DNA of 30,241 nucleotides from a virus, in IMG/VR virus record IMGVR_UViG_3300032242_002535, positions 1 to 30,241 of that record. One strand, given 5' to 3'. Below, one piece after another: positions 908 through 14,394 of the stretch (position 1 is its first letter; the number at the start of each line of letters is the position of its first letter). The notes below the pieces were generated by a model, which had not been told where the DNA came from, made no database searches, and was given only the letters and a program-made list of their open reading frames with translations. Position numbers and translations under genes: made by a program.

Positions 908-1075
908 ATGTCAATTAAAAGAGAAATGTCAAAAAAACAAAGACTCTATTATGAACATAACAATAAGGAAAAAGTATTACAAGAATTACAAGATAAAGCA
1001 AAAGAAACAAGAAATTACGAAGAAGTGATATTAACATCACCATTTGACCCACACAGGAATTCGTTTTATAACTGA
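908..1075 (+). CDS. Small charged hypothetical protein
   Basis: A 55-residue reading frame from ATG 908 to TGA 1073-1075. A strong AAAGGAG ribosome-binding site lies just upstream (897-903). Its last base is the first base of the next gene's ATG (TGATG), indicating translational coupling with the 2OG oxygenase. The protein is rich in Lys, Glu and Gln and is predicted helical in its first 40 residues, with the tail SPFDPHRNSFYN. I recognise no family. It could be a small partner of the downstream modification enzymes or an ordinary phage small protein. Confidence 0.7.
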   Translation: MSIKREMSKKQRLYYEHNNKEKVLQELQDKAKETRNYEEVILTSPFDPHRNSFYN

Positions 1076-1671
1076 TGATTAATGATATATTATGTATTGA
1101 TAATGTTTTTGACGAACCTAAAAAAATTGTTGAATTGGCCAAAAAACAAGAATACTACTCTTGCGAAGAAAATCCAACGTTAAAAAATACAAAAATAAGT
1201 TATAAAGGTAAAAGAACTAAACAATTATTTGAGTTGTTAGGTGATAAAGAATATTATGATTTGACTAGTAAAATAATTAAAAAAATATTTAAAGATGTTT
1301 CACAGACGGTGGTTAAATTACAACCTGTTTGTTTATTTCACTATCTAACAGAATCAGATGTGCCAGATAATTCTTGGTATCACCGAGATACTTCTTTATA
1401 TTCTGGTGTAATATATTTGAGTGAAAATTTTACTGATAGATTTAATAATCACGGTACAATAATAGTAAAAAACCAAGAAAGATTACACATAAGAAATGAA
1501 TTTAATAAATTGGTTTTATATCGTGGAGATTATTTGCATTCTGCCAACTTTGGTTTCGGAAAAACAATTGATGATGCTAGATTAACATTGAATTTTTTTA
1601 TCAATGAGATTAATATAGATTTAAAAAATGAAAATAAAGTAAAAGAAAAACACTATGAATACGAAAATTAA
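1075..1671 (+). CDS. 2-oxoglutarate/Fe(II)-dependent oxygenase-like protein
   Basis: A 198-residue protein with the facial-triad pattern of non-haem Fe(II)/2OG oxygenases. The HxD pair is H103 and D105 (WYHRDTSLYSGVIYLS). The distal histidine is H155 in a GDYLHS block, and R169 is placed to bind the 2OG carboxylate. The fold order (HxD strand, variable loop, YRGDYLHSANFG, DDARLTLNFF) fits the double-stranded beta-helix core and is close to small phage and bacterial oxygenases acting on amino-acid side chains or peptides. The substrate is not visible. It opens a run of modification enzymes around the Cys-rich protein at 3244-3915, so hydroxylation of that protein, for example on its many Asn residues, is a reasonable inference. 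Confidence 0.8.
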   Translation: MINDILCIDNVFDEPKKIVELAKKQEYYSCEENPTLKNTKISYKGKRTKQLFELLGDKEYYDLTSKIIKKIFKDVSQTVVKLQPVCLFHYLTESDVPDNSWYHRDTSLYSGVIYLSENFTDRFNNHGTIIVKNQERLHIRNEFNKLVLYRGDYLHSANFGFGKTIDDARLTLNFFINEINIDLKNENKVKEKHYEYEN

Positions 1672-1676
1672 AAAAT

Positions 1677-3233
1677 ATGTCTAACTGTATTATAATCACC
1701 GGCGGAACTTGGAATAAAGATGACTGGAGTAAACTACAACGTAATGTTGGGTCTTACCGAATTGCATCTGCATTACAGGATTCCGGTTATTCAACTTTTG
1801 TTTTTGACTACATCATAAATTTTTCCTATGATGAAATTATTGAAGTTTTAGATAAACATTTAGGTGATGATACGATATGGGTTGGTTTCTCGTCAACCTT
1901 TTTCTGGTTTCCAGAACACGGAGCAACATCAGGAAATGGCGATATCTTAAAATTAAAAGAGATGTGGTGGACATATGATGATGATGCCAAAAAAATCATA
2001 AACTACATTAAAAGTAAATCCAAAGCCAAAATTCTATATGGCGGAACAAAATCTGAATTTTTTGTTGGTAAAGATCCGGACATTGATTACTATGTATTGG
2101 GATTAGCTGATACCGCAGTTATAAATTTAACAAAACACATTGAAACTAATGATATAACATATCTTGATCCTCATCATGAAATATTAAATTATGACGATGG
2201 TAGAAAAGGTTATTTCATAGACGCTATGAAATATCCTCAAGCAGAAATGGATAACATTAGAACGCATTGGTGGAAAAAAGAATTTAATATTTTACCAAAA
2301 GAAGCTCTATCATTAGAGTTCGCTCGTGGTTGTATATTTAAATGTAAATTCTGCACTTACCCACTCTTAGGTAAAGCAAAAGGTTCTTATCTAAGACAAG
2401 CAAAAGAAATTCGTGATGATATGATATTAAATTATGAAGCATACGGCACAACGGATTACTTTATTACAGATGATACAGTCAATGATGATAATGACAAACT
2501 AGAAGAATTACATAAACAATTTCAAACACTACCATTCAAACCAAAAATAACTGGATTTTTTAGACTGGATTTAATAAATAAACACCGACATCAAGCTGAG
2601 TTGTTAGTTGAAATGGGTTTAGTTGGTGTTTTCTTTGGTATAGAAACATTACATCCAAAAAGTGCTATTTCTATAGGTAAAGGATTACATCCTAATAAAG
2701 TTAAAGATTGCTTGAATTGGTTACATGATGGTCCATGGAAGAGAAAAGTTAACATTGGTGGTGGTATAATACTTGGTTTACCACACGACACCTTTGAATA
2801 TTTTGATGAGATAAATGAATGGGCAGCGGATAAATATTGTCCTATGGATCATGTGCAATTTTATCCTTTACATTTAAATGATATGAGTAAAAAGGATAAA
2901 CCTGGTCTCTATGTTTCAGAATTTAACTTGCATCCAGAAATATATGGCTATAAATTTCCAGGTGAAGATAATTATATGCGTTGGGAATTGCCAGAACAAG
3001 GTTTAAGTTATACATTATGTAATGAAATTTCAAAAGAGTTTAACAAAAATAGAGCTTTATATAATAAAGTCTCTGGTTTTGAGATACCAAAATGGCTAAA
3101 TTTAGGTATACCAATGGATGATTTATATGATTTGCCTGCATGGAAACTTATAGAAAAATATAATGTAAGTGATTTAAATAAAAAACGATTAAACGAGTAT
3201 AAGAAAATGCTCGGTGTATCAAATATAAAATAA
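1677..3233 (+). CDS. Radical SAM enzyme with N-terminal B12-binding-like domain
   Basis: A 518-residue protein. Residues 1-155 look like a Rossmann domain of the B12-binding type (N-terminal CIIITGGTW strand, VGFSSTFFW, KILYGGTKS, DYYVLGLAD), but I do not see the DxHxxG signature that supplies the cobalt ligand. The radical SAM core follows, with CxxxCxxC at C219, C223 and C226 (RGCIFKCKFC) for the [4Fe-4S] cluster, later strands FITDDT and VFFGIET, and a C-terminal part resembling B12-type radical SAM proteins. Such enzymes perform methylations or other radical chemistry on peptides and metabolites; the reaction here is unknown. No clear Shine-Dalgarno; the gene starts 5 bases after the oxygenase, so coupled translation is likely. 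Confidence 0.88.
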   Translation: MSNCIIITGGTWNKDDWSKLQRNVGSYRIASALQDSGYSTFVFDYIINFSYDEIIEVLDKHLGDDTIWVGFSSTFFWFPEHGATSGNGDILKLKEMWWTYDDDAKKIINYIKSKSKAKILYGGTKSEFFVGKDPDIDYYVLGLADTAVINLTKHIETNDITYLDPHHEILNYDDGRKGYFIDAMKYPQAEMDNIRTHWWKKEFNILPKEALSLEFARGCIFKCKFCTYPLLGKAKGSYLRQAKEIRDDMILNYEAYGTTDYFITDDTVNDDNDKLEELHKQFQTLPFKPKITGFFRLDLINKHRHQAELLVEMGLVGVFFGIETLHPKSAISIGKGLHPNKVKDCLNWLHDGPWKRKVNIGGGIILGLPHDTFEYFDEINEWAADKYCPMDHVQFYPLHLNDMSKKDKPGLYVSEFNLHPEIYGYKFPGEDNYMRWELPEQGLSYTLCNEISKEFNKNRALYNKVSGFEIPKWLNLGIPMDDLYDLPAWKLIEKYNVSDLNKKRLNEYKKMLGVSNIK

Positions 3234-3243
3234 GGAAAGAAAA

Positions 3244-3915
3244 ATGACTTTACCTTCCAGTGGTATAATAGGATTTTCTGATATAGAAAATGAAGTTGGT
3301 ATAGCCGTAGGCACAGCTTTAGATATGTCTTGGGTCAGAAGCAATTCAAAAGGAAACATTACTAATATGGATTCTTTACATGGTCTTGCTTGGTATCAAA
3401 GAAATGTAGACGGAAACTGCGATAATGGAAATTGTCCAAATAACTGTAACTGTGGTAATGTAAATTGTGGTAATTGTATCATTACAGGCGGAGTAAATTG
3501 CGCAAATTGTGATGGCCAAGCTTACTTGCAAGGAAATTGTAACTGTGCTTGTGCATATAATTGCACAACAGCAGAAACCTCCTATAATTGTAATTGTGCT
3601 TGTTCTTGGATTTGCGCTTGTGCCTGTTCAGATAAGAGTTTAAAAGAAGATGTCACAAATATTACAGGTGCATTAGAATCGGTCAGACAATTACAAGGCG
3701 TTTATTATAAATGGAACAATTCCGCAGGAAGTTACGGTAAAGTTCCAGGTAAAGAAACGATGGGTGTTATAGCAAACGATACACAAAAAATTGTTCCTCA
3801 GGTTGTAGGAAATTATAAAGATGTATTAACCGTGGATTATGAATCTATGAATGCATTATTGTTAGAAGCGATTAAAGAATTAGATTTTAAAATTGAAAGT
3901 TTAAGAAAGGTTTAA
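3244..3915 (+). CDS. Cys-rich virion-type protein with S74 chaperone domain; putative substrate of radical SAM enzymes
   Basis: A 223-residue protein in three parts. Residues 1-55 (MTLPSSGIIGFSDIENEVG) match the start of many T4-like phage fibre and structural proteins. Residues 59-128 hold 18 cysteines, largely as NC, CNC and CAC units separated by Asn, Gly and Ala. Residues 129-223 (SDKSLKEDVTNI, ALESVRQLQGVYYKW, MGVIANDT, VDYESMNALLLEAIKEL) form a Peptidase_S74 intramolecular-chaperone domain like those ending phage tail spikes. In that family autocleavage occurs before a Ser at the domain start; Ser129 is the candidate, which would leave the Cys-rich block as the mature C-terminus. It has a good AAGGAAAG ribosome site and is flanked on both sides by radical SAM genes. 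A modified adhesin tip is the favoured inference; a metal-binding domain is the alternative. Confidence 0.85.
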   Translation: MTLPSSGIIGFSDIENEVGIAVGTALDMSWVRSNSKGNITNMDSLHGLAWYQRNVDGNCDNGNCPNNCNCGNVNCGNCIITGGVNCANCDGQAYLQGNCNCACAYNCTTAETSYNCNCACSWICACACSDKSLKEDVTNITGALESVRQLQGVYYKWNNSAGSYGKVPGKETMGVIANDTQKIVPQVVGNYKDVLTVDYESMNALLLEAIKELDFKIESLRKV

Positions 3916-3916
3916 T

Positions 3917-5359
3917 ATGAATTTTTATGTTGCAGCTGCCAAATCTGGCGACCCGAGTGATATACAATATTTTTCTTATGACAATGAAAAAAATATTTTG
4001 TCTAGAAAAGATGGTTTTGTTTTTGAATATTCCGAAATCAGTAAAAATGAAATAGAACCAGCAAAAATATTTGATAAAAACAATCCATTAAAAAAATCAA
4101 AATTAGTAACATTTTTAAAGATTCAGTTAGGTTTATCATGTAACTATTCCTGTGACTATTGTTCACAAAAATTTGTTGAACGTGCAGAAGAAACGACATC
4201 AAAAGATATTGATAATTTTCTAAAAATGTTAGATAGTTTGGAATTTGATGAAGAATCTGGATTAAAAATAGAATTTTGGGGCGGTGAGCCTCTAGTTTAT
4301 TGGAAAACATTACGTCCATTAGCAGAGGCGATAAAAGAAAAATTCTACAATTGGAGTAAACCACCACTTTTCTCAATGATAACCAATGGTTCTATCTTAA
4401 CAAAAGAAATGTGTGCATGGTTATACTATATGGGATTTAGTGTCTCTATAAGTCATGATGGACCAGGACAATCCGTTCGTGGTCCTGATCCATTTGATGA
4501 CCCAAAACAAAAGAAAATCATATTAGACTTTTATAAAACTATGAGTAAAAATTATCGTTTTAGTTTTAATGCTATGTTAAACAATAAAAATAAAAGTAGA
4601 AAAAAAATATATGAATGGTTTGTTGATTTAACCGGAGACCCCGGTGTTGCCTTGGGAGAAGGCGGTATTGTTGATGCATATGATGAAGATGGTTTAGGAA
4701 ATTCATTAAGCACAAAGCAGGATCATTTTGATTATCGTAGGCAAAATTTTAATGATATTTTTGAAACTCAAGGTCAAATAGGATTTAGACAACAATTAGG
4801 AAAAATTGACGGGTTTACTCAGTCTATATTGACACACTCACATTCCGATACTCTAGGACAAAAATGTGGTATGGATGATGAACATACCGTAGCAATTGAT
4901 TTGCGAGGAAATGTCATAACTTGTCAGAATGTTAGTTCCGTTGAAATTGGTATGAATGGTGAGAACCATTTAAGTGGCCATGTGACTGATATGGATAATG
5001 TTTCAATTAAAACAGCAACGCATTGGAAAAATAGAAAAGAGTGTTCTTCTTGTCCGGTAGTGCATCTGTGTAAAGGCTCTTGTATGTTCTTGGAAGGAAA
5101 ATATTGGGAAGCTTCTTGCGATAATGCCTATTCGGATAATATAGTTATGTTTGCACTTTCATTTGAAAAGATTACAGGTTATATACCTTTTTTAATAAAA
5201 TCCGAAAATTTACCACTAGAAAGACAAGATATTTGGGGTAATGTTTTCAAACATGAAGAAAAGAAAAAACAAAAGATTATACCAATTAAAGTTGTAACAG
5301 AAAAGAAATTAAAAATTGATGATGTTGAAGTTTATGCAAAAAGTGTTATAATGGAATAA
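3917..5359 (+). CDS. SPASM-type radical SAM peptide-maturase-like enzyme
   Basis: A 480-residue protein. The radical SAM CxxxCxxC motif is at C75, C79 and C82 (LSCNYSCDYCSQ), followed by the WGGEP SAM-binding motif at 121-125 and the ITNGS strand. A C-terminal SPASM domain supplies cysteines for auxiliary clusters: C317, C336, the spaced set C376, C379, C385, C389 (C-x2-C-x5-C-x3-C), and C401. Known SPASM proteins (AlbA, anSME, PqqE, ranthipeptide maturases) modify peptides or proteins through thioether bonds, C-C bonds or Ser/Cys oxidation. The gene begins one base after the Cys-rich S74 gene, with AAAGG upstream, so production of enzyme and putative substrate is tightly linked. The chemistry is not predictable from sequence alone. 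Confidence 0.92.
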   Translation: MNFYVAAAKSGDPSDIQYFSYDNEKNILSRKDGFVFEYSEISKNEIEPAKIFDKNNPLKKSKLVTFLKIQLGLSCNYSCDYCSQKFVERAEETTSKDIDNFLKMLDSLEFDEESGLKIEFWGGEPLVYWKTLRPLAEAIKEKFYNWSKPPLFSMITNGSILTKEMCAWLYYMGFSVSISHDGPGQSVRGPDPFDDPKQKKIILDFYKTMSKNYRFSFNAMLNNKNKSRKKIYEWFVDLTGDPGVALGEGGIVDAYDEDGLGNSLSTKQDHFDYRRQNFNDIFETQGQIGFRQQLGKIDGFTQSILTHSHSDTLGQKCGMDDEHTVAIDLRGNVITCQNVSSVEIGMNGENHLSGHVTDMDNVSIKTATHWKNRKECSSCPVVHLCKGSCMFLEGKYWEASCDNAYSDNIVMFALSFEKITGYIPFLIKSENLPLERQDIWGNVFKHEEKKKQKIIPIKVVTEKKLKIDDVEVYAKSVIME

Positions 5360-5362
5360 AAA

Positions 5363-6043
5363 ATGAATACACAACAAATTTTAGAATTGATTAAATCGCA
5401 CCCAGCTTGTGTTTCTGTTGAAACGTATAACGTTCCTAATTTTTTACAAAACCAAATTACAGATAATGATATAATTTTATTTGATATTATTTTTCAAAAA
5501 AATGAAATAAAAAGAAAAATTATAATTTTATTAAATTTAGATTACATAAAAAATATAGATTTAAATATATCTAATGTTGACCATTTAGTTGATGATTTAA
5601 CTTTTTGTGATAAAGGATCATCATGTTTTGATGATGGTTGTGATATTTGTATTGATGGTGGGCCAGGGTCATACGGCAATATATCTCAAAATATGGGAGA
5701 ACCACCCACCTACTACATAGAACCTACTCAATCGCTAGCTATTAGGTTAAAATCTTTTGAAGTTCCTGAGGTTGAGATAACGGAAGAATTGCAAGAGTTA
5801 ATAAACCGCATACTACAAGTTCAATATATTACTGGCGTATCAATAGAAAATGTTCGCCATACACGAATAACTGAGAAACTTAACCGTGACGATGGAGTAG
5901 TTCTAATATTAGATAGACCGGACCACCACACAAAAATTAATATTTTTTACCCATTAAGTGTTCTACAAAATGTAGATAATCATAACTCAATTATTGAAAA
6001 TATAATTTTTGTAGTAGACACACATAAAAATATAGTGTTTTAA
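5363..6043 (+). CDS. Unknown protein with a four-Cys cluster, last gene of the radical SAM operon
   Basis: A 226-residue protein that I cannot assign. It starts three bases after the SPASM enzyme. The N-terminal ~75 residues alternate hydrophobic strands and charged turns. A motif at residues 82-105 contains C82, C88, C93 and C96 followed by a Gly-rich GGPGSYGN stretch. The C-terminal half is Glu/Ile-rich and ends in beta-strand-like segments (GVVLILD, NIIFVVD, KNIVF). There is no signal peptide. In this context it could be a peptide-recognition or scaffold partner, a second modification target through the Cys/Gly segment, or a zinc-binding protein. None of these can be preferred from sequence. 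Confidence 0.75.
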   Translation: MNTQQILELIKSHPACVSVETYNVPNFLQNQITDNDIILFDIIFQKNEIKRKIIILLNLDYIKNIDLNISNVDHLVDDLTFCDKGSSCFDDGCDICIDGGPGSYGNISQNMGEPPTYYIEPTQSLAIRLKSFEVPEVEITEELQELINRILQVQYITGVSIENVRHTRITEKLNRDDGVVLILDRPDHHTKINIFYPLSVLQNVDNHNSIIENIIFVVDTHKNIVF

Positions 6044-9992: not shown

Positions 9993-10034
9993 CCCGCCAT
10001 GCCTCTCAACGATGCACACTTTGGCGGGTTTTTT
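9993..10034 (+). terminator. Rho-independent terminator after gene 32
   Basis: CCCGCCA (9993-9999) pairs with TGGCGGG (10022-10028) and is followed by six T residues (10029-10034). Inner TGC/GCA pairing can extend the stem. It ends the rightward early/middle transcript and reaches the stop codon of the convergent minus-strand gene. There is no matching T-run on the other strand, so it appears to act in one direction. Confidence 0.85.
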
Positions 10035-11781
10035 ATACCATCCTTAAATTCTGTCTGATAGTTTTCTCAAAAGAACTTTCATACTCTCTCACAGCAACCA
10101 ATTGTTCTACCATTAATCCATCATTATTATTATTAATGATGTTTATCTTCTTTGAATTATCAGCAATTATTGCACTACCTGTTGAACCGGTTTGAGATAC
10201 TCTATTATCAACATATTCATTATTTACGCTTTGCATTTTAGTTGACAATGAATTAACATTTGGTTGTAACGAAGCAGTTTGCATTGAATTATTAATTGTT
10301 GTTGCAACTTTTTTTACTTCATTTTCTGATTCTGAACTTTTGTTTTCTTTTGAAATTTTTTCTGGCTCAACAACAGGAGAAACTGGTTTTGATGGAGCTT
10401 GCCTTGTCATTTTTGAAAAATCATCTTCAGACAAATTTGAATTTTTTAATAATTTGTTAAACTCTTCCTTATTATCAATTATACCTGAATGTAATACTTC
10501 TCTTGCTTGTTCTGGCGTTTCTATTTTTTTAATTTTTCTCGCATTTTTTGTTCTTGTTCCTTTAGGAACATATTCCAATACTCCTGATTTTTCATTTTGT
10601 GGATTATCTAAGAATTCTTTAATATCTTTATCGCTTTTGCCAGTCTCATCAATTAAACCGGATTTATCTTTTTGATATCTTTCTTTAACTTCACCATAAC
10701 GCATTTTTGTGGTTTGGTTATCTATCACAGCTTGGTCATTTTTCGGTGCATTTGGATCTTTTGATGATTCAAACAATTTAGCTAAGCCGTATGCCGTTAA
10801 TCCAATACCTGCAATTCCAGCGGCATATGGAAATAATCTAGTCATTCCCGTAACCAAAGTTCTCATACCTAATTTTGAACCTATTGAAGCAATACCTTCG
10901 CCTAATCCTTCGGTTATTTTATAAATTTGTTGTCCTTCTTCGGACATATCTCTAGGATTTAATTTGCCGGATTTATTCTTTTTTACTTCTTTAAGGGTGG
11001 AATTTAATTTTCCACCTTTTGTTTTCATGCCGGTGATTGCTTCAATTAATTCTTGATTCCACTTATCTTTTTCTTTTTCTTTTTGTTTTTTAAAATTGTT
11101 TTCTAATTGACGATGTTTTTTATCGTCATCAAAACTTTTCTTGATAAGATTATACATTTTAGCAAGAACATCTGATAGACTATCTTTATTTTTTAAATCA
11201 GAAACCCGACCAGAAGAAACTTTCGTTGACGTTGCATCTTCAATTTTTTTCAAACTATTAGGATTAATTTTGGTTGAAACAGGAGAAGCACTTCTTTTTT
11301 TACTCTTAGTACCTGTAAAATATTCCATATCTTCTTTGCTTCTTCCAGTAATTTTACCAAGCAAAGCTGCACCTACATTTCCTGTTAATTTACGAGCAAC
11401 ATTCAAAGGATCCAATCTTTCTTTTAATCCGGTTAATTTTGCCTTCACACTTTCAGATATTCCTTCTTTAATAGAATCACCAATATTTCCACCAGAAATA
11501 ATTTTGCCTGCAATTAAATTTCTTAATCCACGTTCTCTTATTTTTGAAGCTTGTTGATAAGACATACCTTGATTTTTTTCTTCAGGTTCGTCAAATACTT
11601 TAGGTGATTCTGGAATAGTTTCCTTTTCATTTGGACGACCTAATTCAGCAAACTCTTTTCTACTTGCAGGTCTTCCATAGGCACCTTTTTTACCTAGAAT
11701 GTACCAGTAACCTTTACCCTTGTATGTTGTTGGATCCCATACAAAGATTTCATTGCGGAGTTTTTTAGTTATTGTTTTCAT
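10033..11781 (-). CDS. Large tail-associated protein, paralogue of the 870-residue tail enzyme; tape-measure-like candidate
   Basis: A 582-residue protein of unknown function. A block at residues 98-157 (from GNIGDSIKEGIS to KEDMEYFTG) aligns without gaps to residues 47-106 of the upstream 870-residue protein, and a second shared block is at 199-252 (charged, coiled-coil-like). A Gly/Ala-rich hydrophobic stretch at about 290-335 could be membrane-active. The rest is Lys/Glu/Asn/Ser-rich and low in complexity. Length close to T4 gp29 (590), the hub/tape-measure protein, and location behind the gp26 hub-assembly gene suggest a tape-measure role, but no direct motif proves it. It follows the 870-residue gene with no gap and ends the leftward late operon. 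Confidence 0.7.
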   Translation of the reverse strand: MKTITKKLRNEIFVWDPTTYKGKGYWYILGKKGAYGRPASRKEFAELGRPNEKETIPESPKVFDEPEEKNQGMSYQQASKIRERGLRNLIAGKIISGGNIGDSIKEGISESVKAKLTGLKERLDPLNVARKLTGNVGAALLGKITGRSKEDMEYFTGTKSKKRSASPVSTKINPNSLKKIEDATSTKVSSGRVSDLKNKDSLSDVLAKMYNLIKKSFDDDKKHRQLENNFKKQKEKEKDKWNQELIEAITGMKTKGGKLNSTLKEVKKNKSGKLNPRDMSEEGQQIYKITEGLGEGIASIGSKLGMRTLVTGMTRLFPYAAGIAGIGLTAYGLAKLFESSKDPNAPKNDQAVIDNQTTKMRYGEVKERYQKDKSGLIDETGKSDKDIKEFLDNPQNEKSGVLEYVPKGTRTKNARKIKKIETPEQAREVLHSGIIDNKEEFNKLLKNSNLSEDDFSKMTRQAPSKPVSPVVEPEKISKENKSSESENEVKKVATTINNSMQTASLQPNVNSLSTKMQSVNNEYVDNRVSQTGSTGSAIIADNSKKINIINNNNDGLMVEQLVAVREYESSFEKTIRQNLRMV

Positions 11782-14394
11782 TTAAAAGGTTACTTTCATG
11801 AATGGAGGCAAATCATCTTTTGTAGAAGCAATCAATATTCTAGGATCACTTTTTTTACCAATTTGTGTTGTAGTAGAAGAATTATTAACAAAAGAAACTG
11901 GTTTAACATTATCTTTCAATTGTTGATTTTCTTTTGTTTTATCGTTTAACATACTGCCATTATTATTTGAAGCTTGTTGGCTTGATTTATTTTTTTGTAA
12001 ATCAGCAAGAATAGTAGGTAAAACTTTTTGTGGCATCGCTGCGTGTTCTGTCATGGTTGCTGGACCATTAATAGGTATAAATTGAATGTTGCCTTGAGAA
12101 GTTAATTTTCCTTGCAAACCATATTCTTTTAAATACGGCCAATTTGGATTATACCAAACAATAAACTTATCAACATTTTTAGGAGGATTATCTAATAACA
12201 TTTTTAAAGAATCGCCATAAGGGTCTACAAGATATGCAGTTGAAAATTTAACATTTTTATTTTTATTTGCAAAATCTAAAACTGATTTACCACCTAAACT
12301 AAAACCATATAATGGTGAACCATCTTTTGCTAAAGAAGATGGTGCTGAGAATGAATTAAATGCTTTTGCTTTGAATCCAGCCTCATTTAGAGCACCAGCG
12401 GATGTATCAACGCCTTTACTTGTTCCCGATTCAGGATTTAAACCTCTAAACATAACAAAATCGGTAGAAGTATTCATATTGTTAGCTTCAACTTTAGTCG
12501 CCTTATCTGTAACGGTACCCTCTAATTCTTTTATTTTATTTCTAATATCTTGTTGTAATTTATTGGGGTCTTTTGGATGTATTTGGTCCTTACCAGGTTC
12601 AAAACTAACTGTAGAATCTCTATTCTCATTAGCAAAAGCTTCTACAATTTTTCTTGCACCAGAAATATTTTTTCCATCAGGCATTGTGTTGGCAGGCAAT
12701 ACCCAAATATATTTCTTTGCGTTGGTAACTTTTCTTAATTCAGCCAAATCATTTTTTAAATTAGTTAAATTACCCCAATCGTTTGAGCCGGCACTAATAA
12801 CAGCAATATCCGAATTAGTTACATCACCTTGATTTTTACTAGTACCCGCCATACCCTTTTTACTAAGGTCTGATGTTGTTTTAGTTTTAACTGCCGAAAT
12901 AATTTCTTTTGTGGATAGACCTACAGTTGCTTGCGTTTTTGCTTCTTCACCCAATTTGGTTTTACCTACACCATAAGCAATACTATCACCAGCAATAGCT
13001 AATTTTTGATTTGACTGAACATTTGCAGTTTCGTTTGAAACTTTTTTATATTGCGGTTCTTCCATGTTTTCACCTTTATTCACCATAGATTGAACTTCGG
13101 CATAATATTGATTTCTATATTCATTATGTTTTGCATACACCGGATCGGTTCTTCTCCATTTTATATACTTATCACCTAAAACTACTGCAGCATCATCACG
13201 GGAAATATCCGGTTTATCTAAAAACTCACGTTTAACTGATTCAAAACCTTTTGATTGCATTTCACTACGAATAAATTCAGCCTGAGCATCCAAAGAAGCT
13301 TGTGACCTTTGAAAAACTTCTTTACCATCTTTCATTTCAGTCAATCCACGGGCGGCCATAAATTTTCTTAAATTTTTGTTTCTTCCTTCAGCAAAACTAA
13401 ATATTCCAACATTTTCTCTACCTTTTGCTTGTTCTGCTTGTTCCGGATGTGTGCCAAACATAATTTCTGGTCGGAAACCATTTTCTCTTCCCACTTCAGC
13501 TGTCAAGGCTAGTGCCTGATTTTTACTAAAACCTGCTCGGGCAAAAGAATTAAAAACTCTTTTTTGAACTTCACTCCTTTTTTTAAATTCATCGTTTTTA
13601 TTTTCTTTAAAAGTATTTGTTTTTTGTGAAAATATGTCACCACCAACTACAGCTGCACCGACAACAGCAGCTGCCGTACCTGCATCTTTAATAACTGAAC
13701 CAATTTGACTAATTAATCCTGGTTTCATATCTTCTTTAGAAACATTCAGTTTTTTTGAACCAGTAATACGTTTTTTTGGTTTATTTTTTTCTTTATTAAT
13801 TTTATCAAGGGTAGATACTAAATCTTTGTGACGCCTTGCATCTTCATTATGAATTTCTTTTTCAAAATTACGAGATAACTCCATCTGCAATTTTTTTTCA
13901 TCAATATTTTTTTTGTAGAGGCTGAATAGTTTTGCAGCAACATTAGAAACACTATCGCCCTTTTTTACTGATTGTTTTCCTACGACAGTAGTATAAAAAT
14001 TGGTATCAACATTACCTAATTTTTTTGTGGATTTTATGGATTGCGGAGAAGATTTTTGTTTAATTGATTTTTTTATACCAGAAAAATATTGCATCTCATC
14101 TTGGGTTCTATTTGTCAATTTACCAACAACGGCAACGCCTAAAGTTCCGGCAAGCATTTTACTGATGTTTAATGGGTCAAATTTTTCTTTGAACCCCATA
14201 ATGCTTGATTGTGTTGTTTTTGAAATTGTACGTTTTACACTATCACCTTGTATTAGGCTTTGTGTAATATTTTTAAGTAGACCAGTTTCTCTAAACTTTT
14301 TAGCTTCTTCTTTGGTAAGAGGTCGTTTTTCTTCAATCAACTTATCAAGTTGTTTTAGTTCTTTTTGAAGTTGTTCAAGTGTTTTTTGTGTCAT
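11782..14394 (-). CDS. Multi-enzyme tail protein: lysozyme-like, SGNH esterase and alpha/beta-hydrolase domains
   Basis: An 870-residue protein. The N-terminal ~200 residues share two blocks with the 582-residue neighbour, and a short Ala/Val-rich hydrophobic segment lies at 238-252. Residues ~275-440 resemble a phage tail lysozyme (FARAGFSKNQALALTAEVGREN, with E300/E304 as candidate acids, then GIFSFAEGR and QASLDAQAEFI). Residues ~463-625 form an SGNH/GDSL hydrolase: GDSIA with S471, GSND with N538, DQIH with D603 and H606. Residues ~645-800 look like an alpha/beta hydrolase: nucleophile elbow GFSLGG with S699, acid D724 or D728, H784 in MTEHAAMP. The likely role is cutting peptidoglycan and cell-surface esters or lipids during entry. 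The start ATG overlaps the stop of the gp26 frameshift extension (ATGA). Confidence 0.85.
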   Translation of the reverse strand: MTQKTLEQLQKELKQLDKLIEEKRPLTKEEAKKFRETGLLKNITQSLIQGDSVKRTISKTTQSSIMGFKEKFDPLNISKMLAGTLGVAVVGKLTNRTQDEMQYFSGIKKSIKQKSSPQSIKSTKKLGNVDTNFYTTVVGKQSVKKGDSVSNVAAKLFSLYKKNIDEKKLQMELSRNFEKEIHNEDARRHKDLVSTLDKINKEKNKPKKRITGSKKLNVSKEDMKPGLISQIGSVIKDAGTAAAVVGAAVVGGDIFSQKTNTFKENKNDEFKKRSEVQKRVFNSFARAGFSKNQALALTAEVGRENGFRPEIMFGTHPEQAEQAKGRENVGIFSFAEGRNKNLRKFMAARGLTEMKDGKEVFQRSQASLDAQAEFIRSEMQSKGFESVKREFLDKPDISRDDAAVVLGDKYIKWRRTDPVYAKHNEYRNQYYAEVQSMVNKGENMEEPQYKKVSNETANVQSNQKLAIAGDSIAYGVGKTKLGEEAKTQATVGLSTKEIISAVKTKTTSDLSKKGMAGTSKNQGDVTNSDIAVISAGSNDWGNLTNLKNDLAELRKVTNAKKYIWVLPANTMPDGKNISGARKIVEAFANENRDSTVSFEPGKDQIHPKDPNKLQQDIRNKIKELEGTVTDKATKVEANNMNTSTDFVMFRGLNPESGTSKGVDTSAGALNEAGFKAKAFNSFSAPSSLAKDGSPLYGFSLGGKSVLDFANKNKNVKFSTAYLVDPYGDSLKMLLDNPPKNVDKFIVWYNPNWPYLKEYGLQGKLTSQGNIQFIPINGPATMTEHAAMPQKVLPTILADLQKNKSSQQASNNNGSMLNDKTKENQQLKDNVKPVSFVNNSSTTTQIGKKSDPRILIASTKDDLPPFMKVTF

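Follow-up and report, generated by a model that had tools for sequence, protein, structure and literature searches.

A candidate phage-encoded radical SAM system for maturing a tail-type protein with a C-terminal cysteine run

The 30,241-base stretch of DNA analysed here (the window) is a complete IMG/VR virus record, IMGVR_UViG_3300032242_002535, and represents a fragment of a T4-like myovirus. At positions 908-6043 it carries an operon in which a Cys-rich protein is encoded between two radical S-adenosylmethionine (SAM) enzymes, one of the B12 class and one with a SPASM domain. We propose, with a probability of roughly 0.7, that this operon is a phage-encoded system maturing the phage's own tail-type protein, probably through thioether links in a C-terminal Cys run, at a fibre or tail tip. 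The parts of this proposal differ in strength. The SPASM enzyme is inherited together with proteins that carry an (Asn/Ala/Asp)-Cys run, and this run is very likely to be the substrate of the enzyme. The Cys-run protein is likely to be part of the virion, as a fibre or tip protein, while the odds that the product is a set of thioethers are about even. Judged from the genomes, hundreds of tailed phages pair a radical SAM enzyme with a tail-type protein bearing an Asn-Cys run, almost without exception, so that chemical modification of their own tail tips is very probable.

The linkage between the enzyme and the run was seen from four starting points; the best 80 loci were taken per scan, and the records are often fragments. 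Starting from the enzyme, a same-strand open reading frame (ORF) with an alternating Cys run is present in 203 of the 242 loci holding the SPASM gene, two of these ORFs being visibly spurious (L109 and L140), and the 39 loci without a run are mostly truncated or have a related, less regular Cys core. Opposite-strand ORFs of the same loci contain such a run in 8 of 11,004 cases, which rules out chance composition as its source. When the DNA motif was scanned for without regard to the enzyme, NCNCxCNC was found within an ORF at 105 loci; the enzyme lies inside the ~10 kb locus at 80 of them and elsewhere on the contig at 9 others (E<1e-85). The other 16 comprise 9 loci that end no more than 2.5 kb downstream of the gene, 6 short or low-complexity ORFs judged spurious, and one 27-kb record (L251), the sole true exception. 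Expressed per plausible NCNCxCNC protein, the enzyme is on the same contig for 89 of 99, and of the 10 remaining, 9 are truncated; in the control with the motif out of frame, the enzyme occurs at 1 of 14. Starting from the Cys-rich protein family, the SPASM gene is found in 79 of 80 viral loci, and the record of the exception ends 210 bases later. The fourth starting point was a set of 248 genomes from one bacterial family (that of L120), in which the run lies 0.6-1.9 kb upstream of 5/5 full-length enzyme copies, one of them with an internal stop. One of these genomes (G266; C32 and C25) holds three separate Cys-run/enzyme pairs, one enzyme having an internal stop, and another (G177) has a 197-residue enzyme remnant and no run; the other matches of a shorter pattern in the 248 genomes number 11, at the control rate of 17. 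It could therefore be deduced from the four tests that each of the two, enzyme and run, predicts the other. Incidental linkage is ruled out by the NCNCxCNC scan, by the diversity of carrier proteins (about 15) and by the 79/80 loci.

These counts bear on the initial annotation, which had been made from the letters of the window and described a phage radical SAM system aimed at a phage structural protein. It had reasoned that Cys-rich proteins regularly occurring without radical SAM genes would speak against such a system, and the single case among the 80 loci is truncated. It had also looked to co-occurrence with both radical SAM families; relatives of the B12-class enzyme are found at 12 viral loci, 11 of which hold both the Cys-rich and the SPASM gene, in two gene orders. 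With these two results, its core claim is supported.

All 18 Cys residues of the 223-residue protein lie in residues 59-128, exactly as the initial annotation had counted, and Asn precedes 13 of them. The core of this segment is conserved across an alignment of related Cys-rich proteins and 89 related loci, and the N-terminal domain has no relative among cultured phages. The Pfam match to Peptidase_S74 covers residues 129-188; the domain begins at S129, right after Cys128, and has the Ser-Lys dyad S-x4-K at S129/K134. S74 domains cut before the Ser of this dyad, which is S587/K592 in MyRF (cut P586|S587) and S911/K916 in endoNF (PMC8326128). A cut before S129 is predicted here and would make the Cys run the C-terminus, ...NCNCACSWICACAC. 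In a close relative (L290), a stop codon follows the run and the C-terminus is ...NCNCACWICACACW. Because the Ser-Lys cleavage site directly follows the last Cys, S74 in the window protein is probably a discarded chaperone. The initial annotation had proposed to look for an S74 Cys-rich protein beside both radical SAM families; S74, however, does not belong to the conserved unit, since most relatives lack it.

Among the 777 alternate positions of the runs, Asn occupies 541, Ala 127 and Asp 68, and in 126 of the 203 loci no more than 12 residues separate the run from the stop. Where no stop follows, the run is followed by S74 (the window, L034, L073 and L197) or by a Hint domain (the Achromobacter phage JWF, L142, L148 and L150), and cleavage by Hint at its first Cys would likewise expose the run as the C-terminus. 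The stop codon, S74 and Hint appear to be three routes to one mature C-terminus. A further element found after the run is a domain of ~180 residues starting SKIICAKL (SKIICAKLYEFG...), seen at L004:9482-10378 and in about 50 similar loci, which has a hydrophobic helix close to its end and no match in Pfam or PHROG.

The regions upstream of the run form 17 single-linkage groups, or about 15 without the two spurious ORFs, and the carriers include Cys-core proteins like that of the window, several tail fibres and short proteins. The recognised unit is, on this sequence comparison, the C-terminal (Asn/Ala/Asp)-Cys run, a portable tag across about 15 unrelated tail-type proteins. In a quick tree of the enzyme, S74 must have arisen at least twice, and so must Hint; the enzyme tree and the substrate type agree, because the enzymes of all Cys-core rows fall in one clade (support 100). 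Metal-binding peptides typically contain CxC runs, and the run might bind a metal or form disulphides, the radical SAM enzyme acting on some other target such as a cofactor or the host. This explanation is quite unlikely, as it accounts neither for the same enzyme family beside about 15 unrelated carriers nor for the match of enzyme clade to substrate type.

Two other kinds of Cys-rich gene were observed among these loci. A separate carrier with CQ-x-CQ repeats (CQSCQTCQGCQKCQ...) followed by NCNCDCNCNC occurs at L170:2383-2754, L190, L221 and L249, beside a distant SPASM relative (26-27%). At L176:3051-11662, a phage protein of 79 residues ending HTHIFFDDYSTACNCNCNCNC adjoins a run of apparently radical SAM-type genes (CxxxCxxC); the record of L256 likewise has three matches.

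A search of viral contigs with the SPASM protein of the window alone gave no relative. Among 50,697 phage records, close relatives of the enzyme were found only in the Achromobacter phages JWF and 2-1 (42-43% identity), besides three weak SPASM-like matches in faecal phage scaffolds (20-34% identity), and an alignment including JWF and 2-1 opened the family to 524 IMG/VR loci and 83 bacterial-genome loci. The plasmids searched held no SPASM relative. In both Achromobacter phages a tail fibre is encoded two genes before the enzyme, in the tail module, and this fibre carries NCNCDCNC(NC)SC directly before its Hint domain (CFPAGT; Pfam Hom_end_hint, E=3e-12); the Cys-run segment of the JWF fibre (AJD82922) is NCNCDCNCNCSC. 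The run carriers in JWF and in prophages are tail fibres by PHROG. The placement of the Cys-run protein in a fibre or tip is based on these tail modules of JWF and prophages and on S74, and we infer that the modified end faces the host. Four contigs in foreign bins, L093 (Akkermansia muciniphila), L151 (Klebsiella pneumoniae), L084 and L090 (both Bacteroidetes), resemble phages or betaproteobacterial prophages and are probably mis-binned.

SPASM enzymes mostly serve ribosomally synthesised and post-translationally modified peptides (RiPPs), and no tail gene adjoins the related enzymes in Variovorax, which would suit a Cys-rich protein that is a secreted, bacteriocin-like RiPP or a host-directed toxin rather than a virion part. 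We regard this as most improbable, given carriers elsewhere that are PHROG tail fibres in tail modules, the S74 and Hint fusions, and the lack of a leader-type N-terminus, exporter or dedicated protease. A classical RiPP was rejected on similar grounds: the 223-residue protein has a conserved N-terminal domain, the system has no RiPP recognition element (RRE), and the operon encodes neither a protease nor a transporter. From the wording "RiPP-like" in the initial annotation, the SPASM enzyme beside a Cys-rich protein can be retained, whereas the strict sense, with leader, RRE, protease and exporter, cannot. The Variovorax enzymes themselves (L138:7729-9278, L143 and L163) are chromosomal and outside a tail context; just upstream of the first is a 71-residue ORF with LNCNVE and SDCGCF, and this locus may represent a genuine RiPP related to the phage system. 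Two Bacteriovorax relatives (L152:7881-9242 and L154:5663-7042) lie beside ABC-transporter-like genes and have no visible Cys run.

The assignment of the putative maturase as a SPASM radical SAM enzyme, already made in the initial annotation, agrees with its cluster Cys residues, its TIGR04085 match and its fold. The radical SAM Cys are C75-C79-C82, and the SPASM Cys 317, 336, 376, 379, 385, 389 and 401 follow the signature CX9-15GX4C-CX2CX5CX3C-C (C317-G331-C336, C376-C379-C385-C389 and C401), with TIGR04085 over its cut-off. The radical SAM and SPASM Cys alike are kept in 64-65 of 65 diverse relatives, and none of the 65 sequences has an eighth auxiliary Cys, the counterpart of Cys261 in the anaerobic sulfatase-maturating enzyme (anSME) being missing. 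In anSME, four Cys (255, 261, 276 and 330) ligate auxiliary cluster I (Aux I), while a count of seven Cys led to the proposal of an open site for AlbA, and the open Aux I site of CteB binds a substrate Cys (PMC6231123). Seven Cys without an eighth probably agree with an open coordination site on Aux I, and therefore favour thioether over formylglycine chemistry, without proving it. The closest NCBIfam model, PapB, is that of a ranthipeptide maturase and points in the same direction.

The single-chain AlphaFold2 (AF2) model of the enzyme has a predicted local distance difference test (pLDDT) score of 93.7 and matches anSMEcpe, CteB, ChlB, TigE and SuiB in the Protein Data Bank (PDB). The anSMEcpe match is the best (E=1.5e-12), and the annotation of the JWF copy reads anaerobic sulfatase-maturating enzyme, so that oxidation of Cys to formylglycine-like aldehydes, giving a reactive tip, may be considered. 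It is very unlikely, because anSME ligates Aux I by four Cys (PMC6231123) and the Cys261 equivalent is absent from 65/65 sequences; moreover, the vicinity of the enzyme showed no sulfatase gene. Sulfatase maturation as such was rejected, since the eight auxiliary Cys of anSME are not present. Polytheonamide clusters include a B12 radical SAM enzyme, as do some loci here. The run also repeats every two residues, Asn, Ala or Asp filling the alternate positions, and in this resembles polytheonamide, which is epimerised in steps of two (PMC8326336), and epimerisation of alternate residues could yield a D/L strand or beta-helix able to form a tail-tip pore. This reading is unlikely, as proteusin epimerases have a radical SAM cluster only and a C-terminal RRE (PMC8326336), compared to a seven-Cys SPASM domain and no RRE in the window enzyme, and as epimerisation has no need of conserved Cys.

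Several points weigh against thioether maturation of a tail protein by this operon. The top fold match is a sulfatase maturase and not a thioether synthase, and the AF2 model contains no RRE, residues 1-62 forming beta strands without helices and no winged helix. The PapB model gives 84.8 bits, far below its cut-off of 340, and all NCBIfam maturase models score far under their curated cut-offs, including SCIFF (40.4 bits, cut-off 425) and QhpD (TIGR03906, E=6e-18, 64.8 bits, cut-off 453); the reaction therefore cannot be read from family membership. The linkage counts include close kin and hence are not independent, and the few bacterial relatives in Variovorax and Bacteriovorax have no visible NC run. 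Furthermore, in T4-like phages the operon sits outside the baseplate cluster, and, compared to the genomic linkage itself, the chemistry and the virion location are deductions from genomes.

The best NCBIfam models for the B12-class enzyme are TIGR04072, BzaD and PhpK. The window protein has the radical SAM core and no B12-binding Pfam match, a relative at L059 matches PF02310 below its cut-off (E=2.4e-6), and no relative was found in cultured phages or the PDB. By its gene neighbourhoods, this enzyme is specific to the system. Homologues of the 2-oxoglutarate (2OG) oxygenase occur in operons with the Cys-rich and SPASM genes at L290 (53%), L297 (68%) and L355/L357 (60%). The fullest relative, L290, has the same flanks as the window and the order oxygenase, Cys-rich protein, SPASM enzyme, ORF5-like, Trp-halogenase-like, B12-class radical SAM, second 2OG enzyme and exonuclease. 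Genes for 2OG-FeII_Oxy_5, Asp/Asn hydroxylase (PF05118) and Trp_halogenase (PF04820) recur near the enzyme; on 23 large contigs, the stretches no more than 8 kb from it make up 13% of the sequence and contain 32 of the 48 2OG genes and 8 of the 14 halogenase genes. These contigs are related to each other, and p-values for the clustering are therefore only indicative. At L017:1850-2575, L031, L039, L040, L053, L061 and L275, a fatty-acid-desaturase-like ORF (HRYLTH, HRKHHKYTD) lies between the SPASM and Cys-rich genes and overlaps or adjoins the stop codon of the former. In relatives, 12 counterparts of ORF5 immediately follow the SPASM gene, all highly diverged. ORF5 has no match in Pfam or PHROG; its AF2 model (pLDDT 74) has no PDB match, and a role as an assembly or substrate-presenting partner is a guess. 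The multi-enzyme operon of the initial annotation thus survives in its SPASM-Cys pairing, whereas the B12-class enzyme, the oxygenase and ORF5 are optional in relatives rather than constant parts.

In the proposed mechanism, the SPASM enzyme would recognise the Cys run and perform radical chemistry with two auxiliary Fe-S clusters, the open site of Aux I taking the substrate thiolate. Thioethers would join Cys sulphurs to carbons of neighbouring residues, so that the C-terminal tip becomes stapled and rigid, and S74 (Hint or a stop codon in relatives) would then leave the run as the mature C-terminus of the fibre or tip, where it may meet the host surface or brace the tip. In the window phage and some related phages, the 2OG oxygenase might add hydroxyl groups and the B12-class enzyme methyl-type groups. 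A bolder version, which could equally well be right or wrong, is that a mobile C-terminal (Asn-Cys)n tag serves any tail-tip protein, exposed by a stop, S74 or Hint and made into a stapled, highly modified peptide by the SPASM enzyme with an optional B12-class radical SAM enzyme, hydroxylase, halogenase or desaturase, in effect a RiPP on a phage tail.

The coordinates are given in Table 1. The compact operon of five enzyme and Cys genes, with a TGATG overlap, that the initial annotation had read is present: after a 55-residue ORF and the oxygenase come the B12-class enzyme, the Cys-rich protein, the SPASM enzyme and ORF5, with successive gaps of 5, 10, 1 and 3 bases from the oxygenase onwards, and a Cas4-like exonuclease gene (phrog_298) lies 21 bases past ORF5. 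T4-like markers elsewhere in the window are a single-strand binding protein, the baseplate hub, tail tube cap, wedge subunits and tail lysozyme. On the minus strand at 10033-14394, two large proteins (582 and 870 residues) are encoded beside baseplate genes, the former without a PHROG match.

Table 1. Features of the operon in the window, with the basis of each assignment
Feature	Position	Strand	Basis
55-residue ORF at the operon start	908..1075	+	Sequence reading; stop overlaps the oxygenase start as TGATG
2OG-Fe(II) oxygenase-like protein, DUF6445 / phrog_1644	1075..1671	+	Pfam 32.6 bits (cut-off 24); PHROG E=4.5e-19
B12-class radical SAM enzyme, CxxxCxxC in GCIFKCKFC	1677..3233	+	PF04055 E=1.6e-12; NCBIfam
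Cys-rich putative substrate, 223 residues: N-terminal domain, Cys-rich segment, S74 chaperone	3244..3915	+	Pfam; alignment
Cys-rich segment, residues 59-128, 18 Cys, ending NCNCACSWICACAC; proposed modification site	3418..3627	+	Residue count
Peptidase_S74 intramolecular chaperone, dyad S129/K134	3628..3912	+	PF13884 47.9 bits (cut-off 22)
SPASM radical SAM enzyme, putative maturase	3917..5359	+	phrog_1802 E=4e-61; TIGR04085 SPASM E=7e-8
ORF5, fast-evolving partner protein with two similar alpha/beta halves	5363..6043	+	12 positional counterparts; AF2 model

Peptide natural products and a few cellular enzymes are known to be matured by radical SAM enzymes; for virus particles no case was found, and the open-access literature yielded no description of a phage radical SAM system for tail proteins. 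If the proposal is true, non-canonical chemistry occurs on phage tail tips, and models of receptor binding and tail-tip stability would change. Oxygenase, halogenase and radical SAM genes at present classed as auxiliary metabolic genes would also gain a function, and a defined enzyme-tag pair that works on unrelated carrier proteins would become available, with JWF and 2-1 as cultured members.

Among known systems, anSME shares the fold as the best match, but it has eight auxiliary Cys compared to seven here, where no sulfatase is nearby. Endosialidase-type tail-spike chaperones share PF13884 and the S-x4-K dyad; S74 usually caps a long beta-helical fibre, whereas in the window it comes straight after a Cys run, which in relatives terminates at a stop codon. 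The proteusin polytheonamide is similar in that one core with a two-residue period is acted on by several tailoring enzymes, radical SAM enzymes among them; the window enzyme, however, is a SPASM protein without the proteusin epimerase architecture, and the system has no nitrile-hydratase-like leader and is directed to a phage tail. Like the window enzyme, QhpD is a SPASM enzyme that serves not a peptide antibiotic but a working protein, inside which it makes thioethers (PMC8326336); its substrate, however, is the gamma subunit of a cellular quinohemoprotein amine dehydrogenase and not a virus protein. The maturases of ranthipeptides/SCIFF and sactipeptides (PapB, CteB and AlbA) resemble the window system in having a SPASM enzyme whose gene adjoins that of a Cys-rich substrate, and in the count of seven SPASM Cys. 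Compared to these, the window system lacks an RRE, leader, exporter and protease and scores far under the curated cut-offs, and its substrate is a tail-type protein with a C-terminal alternating Cys run. Collectively, a SPASM enzyme paired with a Cys-rich substrate is of a known kind; what is new is that the target is a phage tail protein, that the C-terminal tag is portable and that neither leader nor RRE is present.

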